In this document: piece by piece, positions 35,215 through 44,483 of the stretch
Layout of the letters: every line of letters starts with the position of its first letter
Position numbering within the stretch: the first letter of the stretch is position 1
Source: Chitinophaga pinensis
GTDB lineage: Bacteria > Bacteroidota > Bacteroidia > Chitinophagales > Chitinophagaceae
Reading direction: 5' to 3'
DNA: 64,000 bases
Assembly: GCA_945897185.1 (NCBI GenBank)
Contig: CAMDFC010000001.1
Location: forward strand, 58,448 to 122,447
Position numbers and translations under genes: made by a program
The notes under the pieces: generated by a model
Seen by the model: the letters and a program-made list of their open reading frames with translations, nothing else
Databases searched by the model: none
What the model was told of the DNA's origin: nothing

Positions 35215-36897
35215 ATGAGTTTTGAAGCGTTAGGCATTGAAGAGTCGTTGTTACAAAGCATTCAAGCCCTTGGGTTTGTAGACCCAACCCCCATTCAGGA
35301 AAAAGCAATTCCAATATTATTGAGCGGCACCAAAGATTTTGTTGGTCTAGCTCAAACAGGAACTGGTAAAACTGCTGCATTTGGTTTGCCACTGTTACAG
35401 TTGGTTGACGAAAAATCAAATCACCCACAGGCCTTGATCGTTTGTCCAACACGTGAACTTTGCATGCAAATCACGAAAGATTTGTTCAGTTTTTCAACCA
35501 AGAAAAAATCAATTAAGACGGTCGCTGTTTACGGAGGTGCGTCAATTGGTGAGCAAATTCGCGATCTTAAAAGAGGAGTACAAGTTGTGGTGGCTACTCC
35601 GGGTAGGTTAATTGACCTAATAGAAAGGAAAGCCATCAACCTAAATAACATAAGTTATATTGTCTTAGACGAGGCGGATGAGATGTTGAACATGGGATTC
35701 CGTGAAGACATCGAGTTTATACTGGGCAATACGCCCAATAGAAAAAGTATTTGGCTATTTAGCGCAACCATGCCCTCGGAAGTAAAGCAAGTGAGTAAGC
35801 GTTTTATGAACTCACCCGCTGAAATTACAATTGGTAAGATGAATGCTGCAAACGCAAACATCGATCACCAATATTATGCCACTTCAGGTATAAACCGTTA
35901 CCAAACTTTAAAGCGAATCATTGATTTCAATCCTGGAATCTATGGTATCATTTTTACCAGAACGAAAGCGGATGCCCAAAGTGTTACTGAATCATTAATT
36001 AGAGAGGGTTACGATATTGAGGCACTTCATGGAGATTTAACACAGGTTCAACGTGATAAGGTAATGGCCAGGTTCAGAGAGAAAAGTCTTCAAATGATTG
36101 TTGCAACTGATGTTGCTGCTCGTGGTATTGATGTGAAAGACATCACGCATGTTATTAATTTTGAACTCCCAGATGACCCTGAAGTATACACCCATAGAAG
36201 TGGTAGAACAGGTAGAGCTGGAAAAAATGGTGTATGCGTTTCTATTGTTACCCAAAGAGAAGCACACAAGCTTCGTCAGATTGAAAGACTGATCAACAAC
36301 AAATTCCATAAAATGGATATTCCTTCAGGCAAAGATGTTTGTAGGAAACAATTCTTTCATTTTATCGAAAAAATGTTGAACGCCAATATTAGCCACGGAG
36401 AATACGAAACCTATCTTCCTCTTTTAAAGGAGAAATTTGCTCACGTGGAGAAAGAAGAAATTTTACAAAGAGTTGCTGCCTTGGAATTTGATAGGTTCCT
36501 TCAGTACTATGAAAATGCAGCAGATCTGAATGCAAGAGACGACAGAAGGGCTGAGCGTGGACCGAGAGAAGCATCCGGACAAGGCCGAACAATCCAACGT
36601 GATCGTGGTGAACGCAGCGGTGGTGGTGGATCTGGTGCGGGTTACACAAAACTATTTATCAACCTGGGCACCAAAGACGGGTTTTACAAGGCCAGTTTTC
36701 TTCAATTTATTTTAGACATGAGCGACCTGAAAAAAGAAGTCTTGGGTAAAATCGACATGAAAGAAATGAACAGCTGGGTTGAGATCGAAGGTGGCGCAGC
36801 ACCTCAAATGCTCAGATCAATAGATGGAAAGAAATTCAAAGGCAGAAAAATAAGGATGAATGAAGCCGATGGATTTACATCTCGAAACAGATATTGA
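35215..36897 (+). CDS. DEAD-box RNA helicase with DbpA-type RNA-binding domain
   Basis: GLAQTGTGKTAAFGLPL, VLDEADEMLNMGF, LFSATMP, HRSGRTGRAGKNG; C-term GTKDGFYKASFLQFILDMSDLKK...GRKIRMNEADG. Confidence 0.95.
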   Translation: MSFEALGIEESLLQSIQALGFVDPTPIQEKAIPILLSGTKDFVGLAQTGTGKTAAFGLPLLQLVDEKSNHPQALIVCPTRELCMQITKDLFSFSTKKKSIKTVAVYGGASIGEQIRDLKRGVQVVVATPGRLIDLIERKAINLNNISYIVLDEADEMLNMGFREDIEFILGNTPNRKSIWLFSATMPSEVKQVSKRFMNSPAEITIGKMNAANANIDHQYYATSGINRYQTLKRIIDFNPGIYGIIFTRTKADAQSVTESLIREGYDIEALHGDLTQVQRDKVMARFREKSLQMIVATDVAARGIDVKDITHVINFELPDDPEVYTHRSGRTGRAGKNGVCVSIVTQREAHKLRQIERLINNKFHKMDIPSGKDVCRKQFFHFIEKMLNANISHGEYETYLPLLKEKFAHVEKEEILQRVAALEFDRFLQYYENAADLNARDDRRAERGPREASGQGRTIQRDRGERSGGGGSGAGYTKLFINLGTKDGFYKASFLQFILDMSDLKKEVLGKIDMKEMNSWVEIEGGAAPQMLRSIDGKKFKGRKIRMNEADGFTSRNRY

Positions 36898-36903
36898 TAT
36901 TTT

Positions 36904-36934
36904 TTTGAAAAACGTTCAATGTTTCTTATATTTG
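36904..36934 (+). promoter_or_regulatory. Bacteroidetes-type promoter for aromatic operon leader
   Basis: TTTG(36904-36907)-N19-TATATTTG(36927-36934) fits TTTG/TAnnTTTG; expected start site is around 36938-36941. Confidence 0.75.
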
Positions 36935-36939
36935 CATAG

Positions 36940-37014
36940 ATGATTACGAACAGAACTCCCTACTTCTTTTATTTTTATTACTACTTTACCAGTGGTACGG
37001 GAACTGCTTGTTGA
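36940..37014 (+). CDS. Phe/Tyr-rich attenuator leader peptide (24 aa)
   Basis: ATG ATT ACG AAC AGA ACT CCC TAC TTC TTT TAT TTT TAT TAC TAC TTT ACC AGT GGT ACG GGA ACT GCT TGT TGA = MITNRTPYFFYFYYYFTSGTGTAC*. Nine consecutive aromatic codons upstream of pheA. Confidence 0.9.
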   Translation: MITNRTPYFFYFYYYFTSGTGTAC

Positions 37015-37045
37015 AAAGATAATAAATAACCAATCAACATAAGTG

Positions 37046-37073
37046 TCCCGGCTAACCACCGGGATTTTTTTTT
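37046..37073 (+). terminator. Attenuator terminator upstream of pheA
   Basis: TCCCGG-CTAACCA-CCGGGA-TTTTTTTTT, ending 2 nt before the pheA ATG. Alternative pairing with 36992-37002 forms an antiterminator. Confidence 0.9.
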
Positions 37074-37075
37074 AA

Positions 37076-37972
37076 ATGGAGGGCATGAAAAAAGTACAAG
37101 GGAATAGGGAGACAGCCTGCCTGCCGGTAGGCAGGGGAACAGCAAATAGTCTGCCTGTAGCAATTCAGGGCTATGAGGGTAGTTTCCACCAAGTGGCGGC
37201 AAGAAGCTTTTTTGGTAAGCAAGTTGAAATTCTACCTTGTGCAACTTTTACGGAAGTTATAAAAGAGGCATCTAGTAAAAAAAATACAAGAGGTGGTATT
37301 ATGGCCATCGAAAATTCTATCGCTGGCAGCATTCTTCCAAACTACAACTTGTTGCAAAAGTCTAATCTCTATGTTTCAGGTGAAGTGTATCTTCAAATAG
37401 ACCAGCACTTGATGGTTAATCCCGGGGTAAAAATTTCAGACATCAAGGAAGTGCATTCTCACCCAATGGCACTTTTGCAGTGCACTGGATACCTGAATAA
37501 ACATGCTTGGCGTTTGGTAGAAACGGAAGACACGGCATTGAGTGCGAAGCATGTGCACCAACGAAAAAGCAAACATATTGCTGCTGTTGCAGGTAGTTTG
37601 GCTGCGGAACTCTTTGGTTTGAAAATTATTTCTCCTAGTATTCACGACGTAAAAAATAATTACACCCGTTTTTTGGTGCTTCAGCAAAAAGAAACGGAAG
37701 TAGAGGGGGCTAATAAGGCTTCTATAAATTTCCATACCGATCATGCCAAAGGTAGTTTGGCCAAAGTTTTGTCGCTTATTGCAGACGCTGGAGTTAATCT
37801 AAGTAAACTACAATCTTTTCCAATTGCAGGGAGTCAGTTCAAATACGGGTTTCATGCAGACTTAGAATTTGATCACCTGAATCAATATAACGATGTGATG
37901 AAAGAACTAAAAATGCGCACAGCCTTCCTGAGGGTATTGGGTGTGTATAAAAAAGGAAAATTCAATAAATAG
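37076..37972 (+). CDS. pheA: Prephenate dehydratase (with ACT domain)
   Basis: VAIQGYEGSFHQVAARSFFG, GGIMAIENSIAGSILPNYNLL, VHSHPMALLQCTGYL, KNNYTRFLVL; ACT region KGSLAKVLSLIADAGVNLSKLQSFPI. N-term extension overlaps a palindromic repeat. Confidence 0.93.
   Translation: MEGMKKVQGNRETACLPVGRGTANSLPVAIQGYEGSFHQVAARSFFGKQVEILPCATFTEVIKEASSKKNTRGGIMAIENSIAGSILPNYNLLQKSNLYVSGEVYLQIDQHLMVNPGVKISDIKEVHSHPMALLQCTGYLNKHAWRLVETEDTALSAKHVHQRKSKHIAAVAGSLAAELFGLKIISPSIHDVKNNYTRFLVLQQKETEVEGANKASINFHTDHAKGSLAKVLSLIADAGVNLSKLQSFPIAGSQFKYGFHADLEFDHLNQYNDVMKELKMRTAFLRVLGVYKKGKFNK
37116..37135. repeat. Near-perfect GC-rich palindrome inside pheA N-terminal extension
   Basis: CCTGCCTGCCGGTAGGCAGG; symmetric apart from one G/T wobble position; in-frame translation ACLPVGRG, reverse strand CLPAGR. 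Confidence 0.75.
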
Positions 37973-37975
37973 GAT

Positions 37976-39163
37976 ATGATAAAAGTTTCATCAAGATTGG
38001 ACGGTATAGGTGAGTACTATTTCTCTTCTAAATTGAGAGAGATTGAGGAATTGAATAAAGCCGGTCATCAGGTTATCAACTTGGGTATTGGGAGTCCTGA
38101 TTTGCCTCCACACCCTTCAGTTATTGCAGCGCTGCATGAGGAGTCATCAAAAGCCAACACACATGCATACCAATCCTACAAGGGCACCCCAATTTTAAGA
38201 AATGCAATTGCGGCCTGGTATAAAAGATGGTATCATGTGGATGTAGATCCCAGTGCAGAAGTATTGCCATTGATTGGTAGTAAAGAAGGGATTATGCATA
38301 TCTGTATGACATTTTTAGAGGAAGGTGATGCTGCGTTGGTGCCAAACCCTGGCTACCCAACCTACACCAGTGCAGTCAAATTGTCTGGTGGTAAAGTATT
38401 GCCTTACGAATTACAAGAAAAAAACAATTGGCATCCTAATCTTGATGAGTGGAAAAAAACAATTGATGATCACCAAGCTTTGGGTAAAGGGAAAGTAAAA
38501 TTAATTTTCCTGAATTACCCGCACATGCCTACGGGACAATTGCCTGATGCCGACTTATTAAAAGAAATTGTAGCATTTGCAAAGACCGAACAAATTCTTT
38601 TGATTCACGATAATCCTTACAGCTTTATTTTAAATGAAGCTCCATTCAGTTTATTGTCTCTAGATGAAACAAAGGAAGTGGTGGTTGAACTGAACTCGCT
38701 TAGTAAGTCGCACAACATGGCAGGTTGGCGTATTGGAATGATCGTGGCTTCTGCATCTCATGTAGATGCCATCTTGAGGTTCAAGAGCAATATGGATTCT
38801 GGTATGTTTTTGCCGGTACAAATGGCTGCGGCAAAAGCATTGGAGCTGGATGCGTCTTGGCACAGTGAAGTAAATAGTGTCTACAAAGAGCGTAAAGAAA
38901 TTGCTTGTGAACTACTTGATTTACTTCATTGTACGTACTCAAAAAATCAGGTAGGTATGTTTGTTTGGGCAAAAATTCCGGATACGTATAAAACTGGTTT
39001 TGAATTAAGTGATGCGGTGTTATACAAAGCCAATGTGTTTATTACGCCTGGAGGAATTTTTGGAAATGCGGGTGATGGGTTTGTACGTATAAGTCTATGT
39101 AGCAAGAAGGAAGTTTTGTTGCAAGCTATTGAAAGAATAAAAAATAAGTTAGGATTCGCATAA
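37976..39163 (+). CDS. PLP-dependent class I/II aminotransferase
   Basis: VINLGIGSPDLPPHPSVI, YQSYKGTPILRNAIAAWY, NPGYPTY, LNSLSKSHNMAGWRIGM. Confidence 0.92.
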   Translation: MIKVSSRLDGIGEYYFSSKLREIEELNKAGHQVINLGIGSPDLPPHPSVIAALHEESSKANTHAYQSYKGTPILRNAIAAWYKRWYHVDVDPSAEVLPLIGSKEGIMHICMTFLEEGDAALVPNPGYPTYTSAVKLSGGKVLPYELQEKNNWHPNLDEWKKTIDDHQALGKGKVKLIFLNYPHMPTGQLPDADLLKEIVAFAKTEQILLIHDNPYSFILNEAPFSLLSLDETKEVVVELNSLSKSHNMAGWRIGMIVASASHVDAILRFKSNMDSGMFLPVQMAAAKALELDASWHSEVNSVYKERKEIACELLDLLHCTYSKNQVGMFVWAKIPDTYKTGFELSDAVLYKANVFITPGGIFGNAGDGFVRISLCSKKEVLLQAIERIKNKLGFA

Positions 39164-39181: not shown

Positions 39182-40027
39182 ATGAAAAAAAACTTTGCAA
39201 TTGTTGGTGTTGGATTAATTGGTGGGTCTTTTGCATTGAAATGCAAGGGCAAGGGACTGTCTCACAGGATTTATGGTGTTGATAATAACCCTACGCATTC
39301 AGTTCAAGCAATTGGACTTTCACTTGTAGATGAAATGACTGATTTGGAAACTGCAATTGCAAATGCCGATGTAGTTGTGATCTCTATTCCGGTGAATGCA
39401 CTTGCTGATTTGCTTCCAAAAATTTTAGACTTGGTAGATGAACAAGTGGTTATTGATATGGGATCAACAAAACGACATATTGGCGCTGTGGTAGAAGCAC
39501 ATCCAAAGCGGGGGAGGTTTGTAGCTGCTCACCCTATGTGGGGTACTGAATATTCTGGCCCAACTGCAGCAGTAGAAAATGCTTTTGAAAACAAGGCGGT
39601 CATCTTGTGCGATCTCGAAAAAACAGATGCTGATGCAGTTTCAATTGCTGAAGAAATTTTCACAACGATGCAGATGAGAATGATACAAATGAATGCAAAT
39701 GACCACGATCTTCATGCTGCTTACGTAAGTCATATTGCACACATCACTTCATTTGCCCTCGCTAACACTGTATTAGAAAAAGAAAAAGAGGACAACGCAA
39801 TTTTTGAAATGGCGAGTGCCGGATTTGAAAGCACGGTTCGTTTAGCAAAGAGTAATCCAGCGATGTGGACACCCATCTTGATGCACAACCGAGAAAATGT
39901 ACTGGATGTTTTGAATGAACATATTTCCCAACTTAAAAAATTCAAGTCTTGCCTTGAAAAAGAAAATTGGGAATACTTAAATGAATTAATGTCTAGCGCA
40001 AACCAAATCAAAAGAATTATTCAATAA
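39182..40027 (+). CDS. tyrA: Prephenate dehydrogenase
   Basis: FAIVGVGLIGGSFALKCK, DMGSTKRHIGAVVEAHPKRGRFVAAHPMWGTEYSGP, DHDLHAAYVSHIAHITSFALA. Confidence 0.93.
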   Translation: MKKNFAIVGVGLIGGSFALKCKGKGLSHRIYGVDNNPTHSVQAIGLSLVDEMTDLETAIANADVVVISIPVNALADLLPKILDLVDEQVVIDMGSTKRHIGAVVEAHPKRGRFVAAHPMWGTEYSGPTAAVENAFENKAVILCDLEKTDADAVSIAEEIFTTMQMRMIQMNANDHDLHAAYVSHIAHITSFALANTVLEKEKEDNAIFEMASAGFESTVRLAKSNPAMWTPILMHNRENVLDVLNEHISQLKKFKSCLEKENWEYLNELMSSANQIKRIIQ

Positions 40028-40060: not shown

Positions 40061-41152
40061 ATGGAAAATTTAGCCGCCTCACAAAAATCAGCCGTACAGA
40101 CTGCATGGGGAAAACGCCCCCTCATTATTTCTGGTCCTTGTAGTGCTGAAACCGAGGAGCAAGTAATTGAAACAGCTCAACGATTGGCCAAAACAGGCAT
40201 GGTAAACATGCTCAGGGCGGGTATCTGGAAACCAAGAACGAAACCGGGTATGTTTGAAGGTGTTGGTGCTAAAGGGTTGCCTTGGTTGCAACAAGCAAAA
40301 AAGTTGACTGGCTTGCCAACAACAGTTGAAGTAGCAACAGGTAAGCAAGTTGAGGATGCGCTCACGTTTGATGTTGATGTACTTTGGGTTGGCGCTAGAA
40401 CTACCGTGAATCCATTTAGTGTTCAAGAAGTGGCCGATGCCCTTCGTGGTGCAAACGTTCCTGTAATGATTAAAAACCCCATCAACCCAGATATAGAATT
40501 GTGGCAAGGTGCTGTAGAACGAATTTCTAGAGCGGGCATTAAAGAGATAGGATTGATTCACCGCGGTTTTTCATCCTATGGCAATACAGAATTTAGAAAT
40601 GCACCTATGTGGCATTTGGCCTTGGAAATGAAACGCAGAATGCCAGGGATGTTGATGGTAAACGACCCTTCGCATATTTGTGGCAGAAGAGATATTCTCC
40701 AATCTACAGCTCAAAGAGCAATAGACCTTGATTTTGACGGCTTGATGATTGAAAGCCATATTGACCCAGATAATGCATGGAGTGACGCAAAACAACAAAT
40801 TACACCAGAGCGATTGGGTGAAATGTTAGAAGCAATCAGTTGGAGAAATGAACATGTTCCTTCCCCTTCTTTTCATGCGGCTCTAGATAAATTGCGTGAA
40901 CAAATCAACCACATCGATGATGAATTAATGCAATTGATTTCTCAAAGAATGTTTATAGCAGAACAAATTGGGACTTACAAAAAAAACAACAACGTAACTA
41001 TTTTTCAGCAAAGCAGGTGGAATGAAGTGCTTGAAAAAGCAATGGCAAAAGCTTCAAGAATTGGGTTAAGCGAAGAATTTATCACACGCTATATGGATGC
41101 TATCCACATGGAAAGCATCAATAGGCAGAACCAGATCATGAATAACGACTAA
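40061..41152 (+). CDS. Bifunctional DAHP synthase/chorismate mutase
   Basis: LIISGPCSAETEEQV, LRAGIWKPRTKPGMFEGVG, NDPSHICGRRD; C-term LDKLREQINHIDDELMQLISQRMFIAEQIGTYKKNNNVTIFQQSRWNEV chorismate mutase. Confidence 0.94.
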   Translation: MENLAASQKSAVQTAWGKRPLIISGPCSAETEEQVIETAQRLAKTGMVNMLRAGIWKPRTKPGMFEGVGAKGLPWLQQAKKLTGLPTTVEVATGKQVEDALTFDVDVLWVGARTTVNPFSVQEVADALRGANVPVMIKNPINPDIELWQGAVERISRAGIKEIGLIHRGFSSYGNTEFRNAPMWHLALEMKRRMPGMLMVNDPSHICGRRDILQSTAQRAIDLDFDGLMIESHIDPDNAWSDAKQQITPERLGEMLEAISWRNEHVPSPSFHAALDKLREQINHIDDELMQLISQRMFIAEQIGTYKKNNNVTIFQQSRWNEVLEKAMAKASRIGLSEEFITRYMDAIHMESINRQNQIMNND

Positions 41153-41157
41153 TTTTT

Positions 41158-42201
41158 ATGATAAAAAAGACATACAAATTTTCAAGTGCTAACGTAGATG
41201 TATACTTTGCTGCAGCATTCAAACAGCTTAATAAAGTTATCGATCAAAAAAAAGCCATTCTCATCACTGATGAAAATGTGTTTAAAGCCCATAAGTCCAA
41301 GCTTAAAGGCTGGAATGTGATTACGCTAAAGGCGGGTGAGCAATTTAAAATACAACCAACAGCAGATGCTATCGTTGAGCAGCTGATTGCATTTCAGGCA
41401 GATCGATCATCCATTTTGGTTGGTGTTGGTGGTGGTGTAATTACTGATTTAACAGGATACGTTGCATCAATTTACATGCGTGGAATTCAATTTGGATTTG
41501 TTCCTACAAGTTTGTTAGCCATGGTGGATGCATCAATTGGAGGGAAAAATGGAGTTGATGTTGGCGAATACAAAAATATGGTTGGTGTAATCCGGCAGCC
41601 TTCTTTTTTATTTTACGATAGTGATTTTTTATCTACGTTGCCTGAACAAGAATGGTCAAATGGATTTGCTGAAATCATCAAACATGCTTCCATACTTGAC
41701 AGTGCTTTATTTGCGCGCTTAGCCAAAATGAATTTGGCTCAGCTGCAAGCGGATAAAAAACTACTGGATCTACTTATTCGAAAGAATGTGGAGATCAAGT
41801 CTTCAGTAGTAAAGAATGATGAATTTGAAAAAGGGGATAGAAGATTGTTGAATTTCGGACATACACTTGGGCATGCATTAGAAACTCAATATGAACTTTC
41901 ACACGGACAAGCAATTGCTTTGGGTATGGTTTTTGCTTGTTGGTTATCCAATAAATTATTGGGTTTTAAATCTGAATTAGATGTTGAACAGCTGTTGGTC
42001 CAATACGGATTGCCTACCCGTGCTGCTTTTGATGTGAATCGTGTTTTTGAAATATTTAAAATGGATAAAAAAAGGACTACAAAAAATATGCGCTTTGTCT
42101 TGCTTTCCGCCATTGGTAAAGGCCGCGTTGTTGAGTTGCCACTCACCGAATTAAAGAAACATTTGGTTGCGTTCAATCGATTAAACAAAACGCAAAAATG
42201 A
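41158..42201 (+). CDS. aroB: 3-dehydroquinate synthase
   Basis: LVGVGGGVITDLTGYVASIYMRGIQFGFVPTSLLAMVDASIGGKNGVDVGEYKNMVG, RRLLNFGHTLGHALE. Confidence 0.96.
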   Translation: MIKKTYKFSSANVDVYFAAAFKQLNKVIDQKKAILITDENVFKAHKSKLKGWNVITLKAGEQFKIQPTADAIVEQLIAFQADRSSILVGVGGGVITDLTGYVASIYMRGIQFGFVPTSLLAMVDASIGGKNGVDVGEYKNMVGVIRQPSFLFYDSDFLSTLPEQEWSNGFAEIIKHASILDSALFARLAKMNLAQLQADKKLLDLLIRKNVEIKSSVVKNDEFEKGDRRLLNFGHTLGHALETQYELSHGQAIALGMVFACWLSNKLLGFKSELDVEQLLVQYGLPTRAAFDVNRVFEIFKMDKKRTTKNMRFVLLSAIGKGRVVELPLTELKKHLVAFNRLNKTQK

Positions 42202-43478
42202 TTATAACAATACATCCTTCTTCGGTTCATGGAAGTATAAGAAGTCCGCGTTCTAAAAGCGACATGCAAAGGGCATGTGCAGCAGCATTGTTGCATAAGG
42301 GTACAACAACCATTCAAGATCCTGGCCGAAGCAACGACGATCTGGCAGCACTTGATGTAATAATCAAGTTAGGAGCATCTCTAAAAGATGAAGGTGATTT
42401 CATCACTATTTCCAGTAACGGTGTGAATCCAAAAAATAATCAAATTGATTGTGGAGAAAGTGGTTTGGGTATAAGGATGTTTACGCCCATTGCTGCTTTA
42501 TCTGCACTTCCACTTACCATTCAAGGAACAGGCTCTTTGGTTAGTCGTCCAATGGATTTTTTTGATCAAATCTTTCCTCAATTAGATATTTCGATAACAA
42601 CACGTGAAGGAAAACTTCCCTTGCAAGTAAAAGGCCCCTTGGTGCCTAAAGACATTCAGGTAGATGGCAGTTTAAGTTCTCAGTTTTTAACTGGTCTGTT
42701 GATGGCCTATTCAGCGAGCAATGCAACAGGGGTAACCATAACAGTACATGATTTAAAGAGTAAACCCTATATCGATCTTACCTTACGTGTGCTAAAAGAT
42801 TTCGGCATGAAACTACCCTTGGTCAACAACCATGAGCAATTTGAGTTTTCTGCAGAACAACACCAGCAGCCAGTTGGGAACATAAATTACAAGATTGAAG
42901 GTGATTGGAGTGGCGCTGCTTTTTTGTTTGTTGCTGGTGCCATTTCAAATCCCATTACGATTGAAGGCATGCGCTCAGATTCTGTTCAAGCCGATATTAA
43001 AATAGTAGAAGCAATTAGAGATGCAGGAGCTAACTTGACTTACCATGATGGAAAATACAGTGTTGGTCCTGCCCAACTCAAGGCTTTTGAATTTGATGCA
43101 ACAGAATGCCCAGATCTTTTCCCGCCTTTGGTTGCATTGGCATCCTATTGCGATGGAATTACAAGAATCAAGGGTGTCAATAGATTGGCACACAAGGAGA
43201 GCAACCGTGGATTATCTTTAAAGGATGTTTTTGGTAAGATGGGTATTCAGGTTGAATTGGATGAAAATTGGATGCTGGTGCATGGCGGTAAACAAGTACT
43301 TTCCGCACAAGTGCATTCACACCACGATCACCGAATTGCGATGGCAGCAGCAATAGCTGCCTTGGGGGCATCCGGACCAATCATTATTGAAGCAGCGGAG
43401 GCCATCAATAAATCATATCCTGAGTTTTATAACCACTTAAAAAGCCTAGGTGTTCAATTAGAAACAGAAACCAATTAA
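42198..43478 (+). CDS. aroA: 3-phosphoshikimate 1-carboxyvinyltransferase
   Basis: GSIRSPRSKSDMQRACAAALL, DCGESGLGIRMFTPIAAL, LSSQFLTGLLMA, HDHRIAMAAAIAALGA. Confidence 0.95.
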   Translation: MIITIHPSSVHGSIRSPRSKSDMQRACAAALLHKGTTTIQDPGRSNDDLAALDVIIKLGASLKDEGDFITISSNGVNPKNNQIDCGESGLGIRMFTPIAALSALPLTIQGTGSLVSRPMDFFDQIFPQLDISITTREGKLPLQVKGPLVPKDIQVDGSLSSQFLTGLLMAYSASNATGVTITVHDLKSKPYIDLTLRVLKDFGMKLPLVNNHEQFEFSAEQHQQPVGNINYKIEGDWSGAAFLFVAGAISNPITIEGMRSDSVQADIKIVEAIRDAGANLTYHDGKYSVGPAQLKAFEFDATECPDLFPPLVALASYCDGITRIKGVNRLAHKESNRGLSLKDVFGKMGIQVELDENWMLVHGGKQVLSAQVHSHHDHRIAMAAAIAALGASGPIIIEAAEAINKSYPEFYNHLKSLGVQLETETN

Positions 43479-43487
43479 ATTCGTAAC

Positions 43488-44483
43488 ATGAATCAGTTTG
43501 GCAAACTTTTTACAATCAGCATCTTTGGCGAATCACATGGTGAAAGTGTGGGTGTTGTTATTGATGGTTGTCCGGCTGGCATGCCCATCTCGGTAGAAGA
43601 TTTTATTGAGGACACTGAACGTAGAAAGGGAGGCATGCAAAAAGGGACTACCCCAAGGCAGGAAGAGGATCTTCCCTTGTTTAAGAGTGGTGTATTTAAT
43701 GGGAAAACAACAGGTGCACCATTGACCTTGCTTTTTGAAAATAAAAATACCCGCTCAGGTGATTATGAAAAACAAAGAGCAGTACCAAGACCAGGTCATG
43801 CTGATTTTGTAGCGAATAAAAAATTTGGAGGCTTTGAGGATTATAGAGGCGGCGGTCATTTTAGCGGTCGACTTACCCTATGTTTGGTGGCTGCAGGTGT
43901 AGTGGCAAAAAAAATGTTAGCGCCTTTAAAAATAGTTGCTACCATCACTGCCATCGGGGGAGAAACTGATGTTGAGCAAGGTTTGCAAAAAGCGATAACG
44001 AATAAAGATTCGGTTGGCGGTATTGTAGAATGTAGGGTAGCCAATTTGCCAATCGGACTTGGAGAACCATTTTTTGATTCAGTAGAATCACTCATTGCCC
44101 ATGCAGTTTTTGCCATACCCGCTGTTAGGGGAATTGAGTTTGGTACAGGTTTCAAGGCTGCTGATATGTTTGGGATAGACCACAATGATGCAATTGAAAA
44201 TGGCGATGGTAAAACAATCACCAATCATGCAGGTGGTATTGTTGGTGGAATTACGAACAGCAATGAATTGGTATTTAGAATTGCGATAAAACCTACTTCC
44301 TCTACCCCTAAGGAACAGCAGACATACAATTGGGAAACAGATCAAGTTGATGGTTTTGCAGTAAGGGGGAGACATGATTTGTGTATCGCCTTGCGCGTTC
44401 CTCCAGTATTGGAAGCAGTTACTGCCATAACATTAGCAGATCTGATGCTGCGCGAACAAAGAATTAAAAGAGTATATTCATAA
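43488..44483 (+). CDS. aroC: Chorismate synthase
   Basis: FTISIFGESHGESVGVVIDGCPAGM, RPGHADFVANKKFGGFEDYRGGGHFSGRLT, RGRHDLCIALRVPPVLEA. Confidence 0.97.
   Translation: MNQFGKLFTISIFGESHGESVGVVIDGCPAGMPISVEDFIEDTERRKGGMQKGTTPRQEEDLPLFKSGVFNGKTTGAPLTLLFENKNTRSGDYEKQRAVPRPGHADFVANKKFGGFEDYRGGGHFSGRLTLCLVAAGVVAKKMLAPLKIVATITAIGGETDVEQGLQKAITNKDSVGGIVECRVANLPIGLGEPFFDSVESLIAHAVFAIPAVRGIEFGTGFKAADMFGIDHNDAIENGDGKTITNHAGGIVGGITNSNELVFRIAIKPTSSTPKEQQTYNWETDQVDGFAVRGRHDLCIALRVPPVLEAVTAITLADLMLREQRIKRVYS

Follow-up and report, generated by a model that had tools for sequence, protein, structure and literature searches.

Leader-peptide attenuation is a classical mechanism. The leaders of the E. coli ilvGMEDA and thrABC operons are multivalent, that is, codons for more than one end product stand in a single leader, and leaderless trpL attenuators exist in Sinorhizobium and in Actinobacteria. 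Bacteroidota mostly lack Shine-Dalgarno sites. Among the Bacteroidetes, the Bacteroid-trp motif (RF01692) is listed as a cis-regulatory RNA motif (Weinberg 2010, PMC2864571). The 2021 transcriptome of Flavobacterium psychrophilum gives, in its main text, strong indications of attenuation by leader peptides ahead of amino-acid operons, and describes a structured element without an Rfam match before pheA in this species and other Flavobacteriaceae (PMC9723704). A comparative survey, that of Lopatovskaya et al. (2010), is cited in PMC4833913. In the open-access literature we met no account of a regulator of aromatic amino-acid synthesis from Bacteroidota, and no description of a Phe + Tyr code, its antiterminator or a class-wide spread. 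The sequence-only reading of the present locus was aware of no described joint Phe/Tyr leader over a whole shikimate operon in the phylum; the feature had not gone wholly unnoticed, as the F. psychrophilum element shows.

The window, i.e., the whole 64-kb stretch of DNA analyzed here, comes from a genome assembly of 2.29 Mb (98% complete); among named organisms, those nearest to it by PheA belong to the Chitinophagaceae. We consider it very probable that the segment before its pheA gene acts as a ribosome-mediated transcription attenuator responsive to the supply of both charged tRNA-Phe and charged tRNA-Tyr. Four features of this class of regulator are found, as follows: a leader ORF with many codons for the pathway's products, a terminator before the first structural gene, the cognate biosynthetic operon downstream, and, from covariation and folding, an antiterminator that takes up the 5′ arm of the terminator and would be masked by a ribosome at the leader stop codon. 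The leader is an ORF of 24 codons, from ATG to TGA, with nine Tyr/Phe codons in a row. Both lie exactly where the sequence-only reading had put them, as does the terminator with its T9 tract, which is also recovered by a terminator scan; the assignment of the seven downstream genes holds as well. Coordinates are collected in Table 1.

Table 1. Features of the leader region and the aromatic operon, in window coordinates.
Feature	Position	Strand	Basis
Bacteroidota-type promoter	36905..36934	+	TTG 36905-36907, 19-nt spacer, -7 box TATATTTG 36927-36934
Leader-peptide ORF, MITNRTPYFFYFYYYFTSGTGTAC and stop	36940..37014	+	sequence; homologous ORFs in 107/107 Chitinophagaceae loci
Regulatory codons, nine consecutive Tyr/Phe (Y F F Y F Y Y Y F)	36961..36987	+	sequence
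Antiterminator, outer 5′ strand CGGGA plus ACT	36998..37005	+	fold; covariation with terminator 5′ arm
Antiterminator, inner 5′ strand TGTTGA, containing the leader stop codon	37009..37014	+	fold; G-C / A-U switch
Antiterminator, inner 3′ strand TCAACA (37034-37039) plus AGT (37042-37044)	37034..37044	+	fold, covariation
Intrinsic terminator, GTCCCGG / loop CTAACCA / CCGGGAT + T9	37045..37073	+	sequence, terminator scan, fold
pheA, prephenate dehydratase (ATG 37076 or 37085)	37076..37972	+	
PLP-dependent aminotransferase	37976..39163	+	sub-threshold to every subfamily shown
tyrA, prephenate dehydrogenase	39182..40027	+	
DAHP synthase / chorismate mutase fusion	40061..41152	+	
aroB, 3-dehydroquinate synthase	41158..42201	+	
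aroA, EPSP synthase	42198..43478	+	
aroC, chorismate synthase	43488..44483	+	

The proposed mechanism is as follows. Transcription would begin at or beside the leader AUG, and the leader would be translated while the RNA is being made. When Phe and Tyr are both plentiful, the ribosome would reach the stop codon and cover CGGGA and UGUUGA, so that the terminator forms and the operon is off. When either amino acid is scarce, the ribosome would stall within the nine-codon run and leave CGGGA and UGUUGA free to pair with UCCCG and UCAACA. This pairing would remove the terminator 5′ arm, and RNA polymerase would read through into pheA-AT-tyrA-DAHPS/CM-aroBAC.

The segments up to the terminator 5′ arm, the arm common to both structures, make up one antiterminator hairpin, CGGGA-ACU...UGUUGA // UCAACA..AGU.UCCCG, with a folding energy in the window of -14.6 kcal/mol versus -11.2 kcal/mol for the terminator. 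The sequence-only reading had paired CGGGA (36998-37002) with TCCCG (37046-37050) and GTGGT (36992-36996) with ACCAC (37055-37059). The former helix is well supported. The latter shows no significant covariation in its columns and was rejected as a conserved helix. Use of the terminator 5′ arm stands, and the rest of the antiterminator is the inner helix UGUUGA:UCAACA plus ACT:AGT, not GTGGT. Folded as a whole, the region does not surpass shuffled sequences in stability (z = -0.42), and the evidence therefore comes from comparison, not from thermodynamics.

Relatives were searched for a short ORF with at least 6 Phe/Tyr in 12 residues upstream of pheA. Among Chitinophagaceae loci with enough sequence, such a leader is present in all 107, 106 by automatic search and the last, L109, with a GTG start, by inspection; some of these loci represent the same genome twice, and 87 elements are distinct. 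The usual layout in the family places the ORF between a TAnnTTTG promoter box and the terminator. Named genera with the leader include Pollutibacter, Foetidibacter, Terrimonas, Pinibacter, Ilyomonas, Ginsengibacter, Flavihumibacter, Hydrotalea, Ferruginibacter, Flavitalea, Filimonas and Niastella. For the class as a whole, a PheA match was found in 87 of 290 genomes, and 60 regions were drawn from those 87 genomes plus order-level PheA matches. The leader lies 130-350 nt upstream of pheA in 40 of these 60 sampled loci (17 family codes), and the other 20 have no leader ORF directly upstream. Controls gave 1/107 (Chitinophagaceae) and 1/60 (class) on reverse strands, 1.3% and 1.7%, respectively, in shuffles, and 1/59 and 0/59 in neighboring 400-nt windows. 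The leader peptides themselves diverge widely, e.g., MSQINTYFRFYFSFYFSNRPGLLLLTAN, MKRFNTYFWFYYYFFKALPGFERVAVCC and MTTHIYFYFNFYFADPAKRG, and the Phe/Tyr density is kept. Among the class loci where pheA lacks a Phe/Tyr leader directly upstream are L127, L134, L131, L137, L147, L155-L159, L162-L166, L168 and L169. An additional locus, L105 (JADCRZ010000042.1), is titled Williamsia sp., an actinobacterium, yet its pheA and leader are typical of Chitinophagaceae, and this MAG is therefore probably mislabelled or contaminated.

Codon usage within the runs indicates what is being selected. TTT, TTC, TAT and TAC together occur 1096 times, TTG once and TTA never. U-richness would admit TTR codons, and their near-absence therefore argues that the amino acids, not U-richness, are under selection. 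Both Phe and Tyr are present in 127 of 127 runs, with at least two of each in 126. No Phe-only or Tyr-only leader was found among the 127, and the same search would have detected one. A genome-wide search with an 18-base Phe/Tyr codon pattern gave matches about as frequent as its reversed control, and the pattern was dropped as a specific detector.

The comparisons also point to selection at the level of the RNA. In the outer helix of Chitinophagaceae, the pairing positions -2 and -3, counted from the GGG, covary with the terminator (C-G/G-C and G-C/A-U, respectively), with permutation p values of 0.0014 (-2) and <0.0002 (-3). Outside the family, pairing of the leader tail with the terminator arm beats shuffles at p ≤ 0.05 in 20 of 35 elements and at p ≤ 0.01 in 13 of 35, for a combined p of about 4e-20 that, like the Fisher values, ignores relatedness among the elements. 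The outer pairing recurs with sequences often unrelated to CGGGA, as in L126, L129, L154, L160 and L117; examples are AACGAGG:CCTCGTT (L154), GAGACTTT:AAAGTCTC (L126) and GGCAGG:CCTGCC (L160). In the inner helix, GTTG is found with CAAC in 46 elements and GTTA with TAAC in 17, and the mixed combination in none. On the PheA tree this helix changed at least four times, both sides always together; the strongly supported branches hold one independent pair, of four pairs in all, and no p value is therefore drawn from a phylogenetic sign test. Where the reading frame continues past this point, as in L021 and L027, the nucleotides TTGTTGA are kept though they encode Leu-Leu/Thr; that is, the RNA, not the peptide, is conserved. 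Conservation of the aromatic run and covariation of the competing stems, the two comparisons for which the sequence-only reading had called, thus both bear it out, the latter in the outer CGGGA:TCCCG helix as well as in the inner one.

The geometry of the element agrees with a ribosome-operated switch. In 67 of the 87 Chitinophagaceae elements, 11 nt separate the end of the run from the antiterminator GGG, which is the right reach for the edge of a ribosome. A simple equilibrium folding model was used that makes RNA available for pairing from 15 nt past the A-site codon. In it, a modelled ribosome on run codons 1-6 of the window leader gives an antiterminator probability of 0.83-0.97, and one that has reached or passed the ninth run codon gives a terminator probability of 0.97-0.98. 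For the window, the model agrees with the earlier proposal that a ribosome at the stop would mask the antiterminator and one stalled early would leave it free. Across relatives, the terminator probability shifts by more than 0.2 in 38 of 87 family elements and 8 of 38 class elements, and in none in the wrong direction. Since only these elements respond at equilibrium, the switch must need co-transcriptional order or pairing that the model underrates. Ribosome-free window RNA prefers the terminator (0.74), and termination may therefore also occur when the leader is not translated. By eye, CTCCC at 36956-36960 can pair with the GGGA of the antiterminator strand, a possible protector fold that is seen in the window's species and, only in part, in close relatives; it is not general in Chitinophagaceae and for that reason forms no part of the proposed mechanism. 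Such a protector may explain the ribosome-free preference for the terminator, promoting termination of an untranslated leader.

The promoter upstream of the leader is a match in a sequence scan, located between the helicase gene and the ORF, and five bases separate the end of its -7 box from the leader AUG. In F. psychrophilum the -7 box sits at -12 to -5 (PMC9723704, main text); by analogy, transcription would start at about 36939. In 80 of the 87 distinct Chitinophagaceae elements, a TAnnTTTG box (6/6 or 5/6) precedes the leader start by 3-9 nt, and on the strength of this box the leader mRNA in the family is probably nearly leaderless. In other families the best promoter box is commonly 15-35 nt from the leader start. 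Leaderless mRNAs (<10 nt) are a small minority, 5.5% in Flavobacterium (PMC9723704, main text) and about 3.7% in Bacteroides (PMC7366714).

These data bear on simpler accounts of the region. The hairpin might be only the terminator of the upstream DEAD-box helicase gene, and the Phe/Tyr ORF a chance product of U-rich DNA. The helicase gene does end at 36897, only 42 nt before the ORF; U-rich promoter and terminator DNA readily encodes Phe and Tyr, and the codon pattern mentioned above matches elsewhere in the genome at its control frequency. Chance is nonetheless hard to reconcile with a leader found in 107/107 and 40/60 loci versus 1-2% in controls, with codon-level selection, with a covarying alternative helix, or with a promoter-like site between helicase and ORF. 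Because the leader is conserved, this account is refuted as a full explanation, and we give it next to no credence; the terminator may also end helicase transcripts.

No more credible is an arrest peptide, where the nascent leader peptide or a bound ligand, not scarcity of charged tRNA, would stall the ribosome. Aromatic-rich nascent chains can interact with the ribosome tunnel, and a C-terminal T-G-x-G-x-x-C pattern looks kept in the genus. Yet Phe and Tyr swap freely, the N-terminus is unconserved, and the C-terminal pattern gives way to other residues in leaders that keep the RNA segments. Sensing of a single amino acid in practice, either Phe or Tyr, with the other's codons neutral, deserves a little more weight, given that TTY and TAY are one mutation apart, but we regard it as unlikely: 126 of 127 runs class-wide retain two or more codons for each of the amino acids, and one-sided leaders failed to appear in a search able to find them. 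The preferred reading is therefore an attenuator that responds to shortage of either amino acid.

The operon under this proposed control apparently holds the only DAHP synthase of the genome. PF00793 has two matches genome-wide, the operon's DAHPS/CM fusion and a 272-residue protein, L211, which from its size and family is probably the related KDO-8-P synthase, and PF01474 has no match in the whole genome. The core pheA-aminotransferase-tyrA-DAHPS/CM is present in most families examined; some families retain just pheA-AT-DAHPS/CM or pheA-DAHPS/CM. The aroB-aroA-aroC block follows the core in 3 of 3 Chitinophagaceae loci examined (L171-L173) and was found in the same order in none of the other families examined. 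A palindromic repeat, CCTGCCTGCCGGTAGGCAGG, lies inside the 5′ end of pheA (window 37116-37135), where its translation is ACLPVGRG. The 17-base core of this repeat is listed six times in the genome, its reversed control not once, which suggests that an interspersed palindromic repeat was inserted into the pheA coding sequence.

Taking the comparisons together, we suggest, with reasonable though lesser confidence, that a bivalent Phe/Tyr attenuator is old and widespread in the class Bacteroidia, that in Chitinophagaceae it governs the sole DAHP synthase, together with the greater part of the shikimate pathway, by way of a near-leaderless transcript, and that some lineages carry it in tandem. 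Two Phe/Tyr leader ORFs precede pheA at about 315-325 and 170-190 nt in L117 and L119 (family code f68), and at 351 and 198 nt in L132 (family code f19); each ORF is followed by a terminator-like hairpin, and these are apparently double attenuators. As the same arrangement stands before pheA class-wide, these bacteria probably switch the pathway on when Phe or Tyr runs short. If so, a sensor of either amino acid on the operon with the only DAHP synthase found in the genome would explain in outline how one transcription unit can serve two end products. The predictions are concrete and can be checked in the cultured genera Niastella, Terrimonas and Flavitalea; the element would offer a short, well-defined switch for the study of leaderless translation coupled to transcription, and would add an RNA family outside present Rfam coverage.

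Other leaders occur in the same genome. At L208 (contig C52), 143 nt before hisG, a leader reading MLMTNHIHHHHNLPNG and stop lies right behind a TAATTTTG box and is followed by a terminator-like hairpin; judged by its sequence, this is a His attenuator of the same layout as the Phe/Tyr leader. At L209 (contig C4), 168 nt before trpE, an ORF reading MKISNTNNGWHIIPLKG and stop, with a single Trp codon, is followed by GGGCT and then by the terminator AGCCCCGAAATTTCGGGGCT and a T run, possibly a one-Trp attenuator.

With respect to known families, the window scores 17.5 bits against Rfam RF01859 (Phe_leader), where the cut-off is 55; the best relative, L048, reaches 49.8 bits, and 0 of 118 genomes of the class sample exceed the cut-off. 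Filing the element under Phe_leader was rejected on these scores, and weak matches to the model occur all over Bacteroidota genomes. No T-box riboswitch or other Rfam cis-regulator has a gathering match in the 64-kb window. The Bacteroid-trp motif is likewise a Bacteroidetes cis-regulatory RNA but differs in that RF01692 has no match in the window or the leader region. The Flavobacteriaceae pheA 5′ element shares gene and phylum with the present one, whereas the main text of its description includes no Phe/Tyr code, antiterminator or distribution beyond the family (PMC9723704). The E. coli pheA attenuator (pheL) is alike in its short leader with a Phe run, its exchange of antiterminator and terminator, and the pheA gene downstream; here, in contrast, the run mixes Phe and Tyr, the operon comprises seven aromatic genes, and the leader starts beside the promoter. 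With the trpL attenuators of Sinorhizobium and Actinobacteria it has in common an amino-acid operon and a leader peptide made from a (near-)leaderless transcript, but those concern Trp and other phyla, whereas this one concerns Phe/Tyr in Bacteroidota, and its leaderlessness is suggested by the promoter box only. Finally, as in the E. coli ilvGMEDA and thrABC leaders, several products of a shared pathway are coded in one leader, Ile/Val/Leu or Thr/Ile there and Phe/Tyr here.
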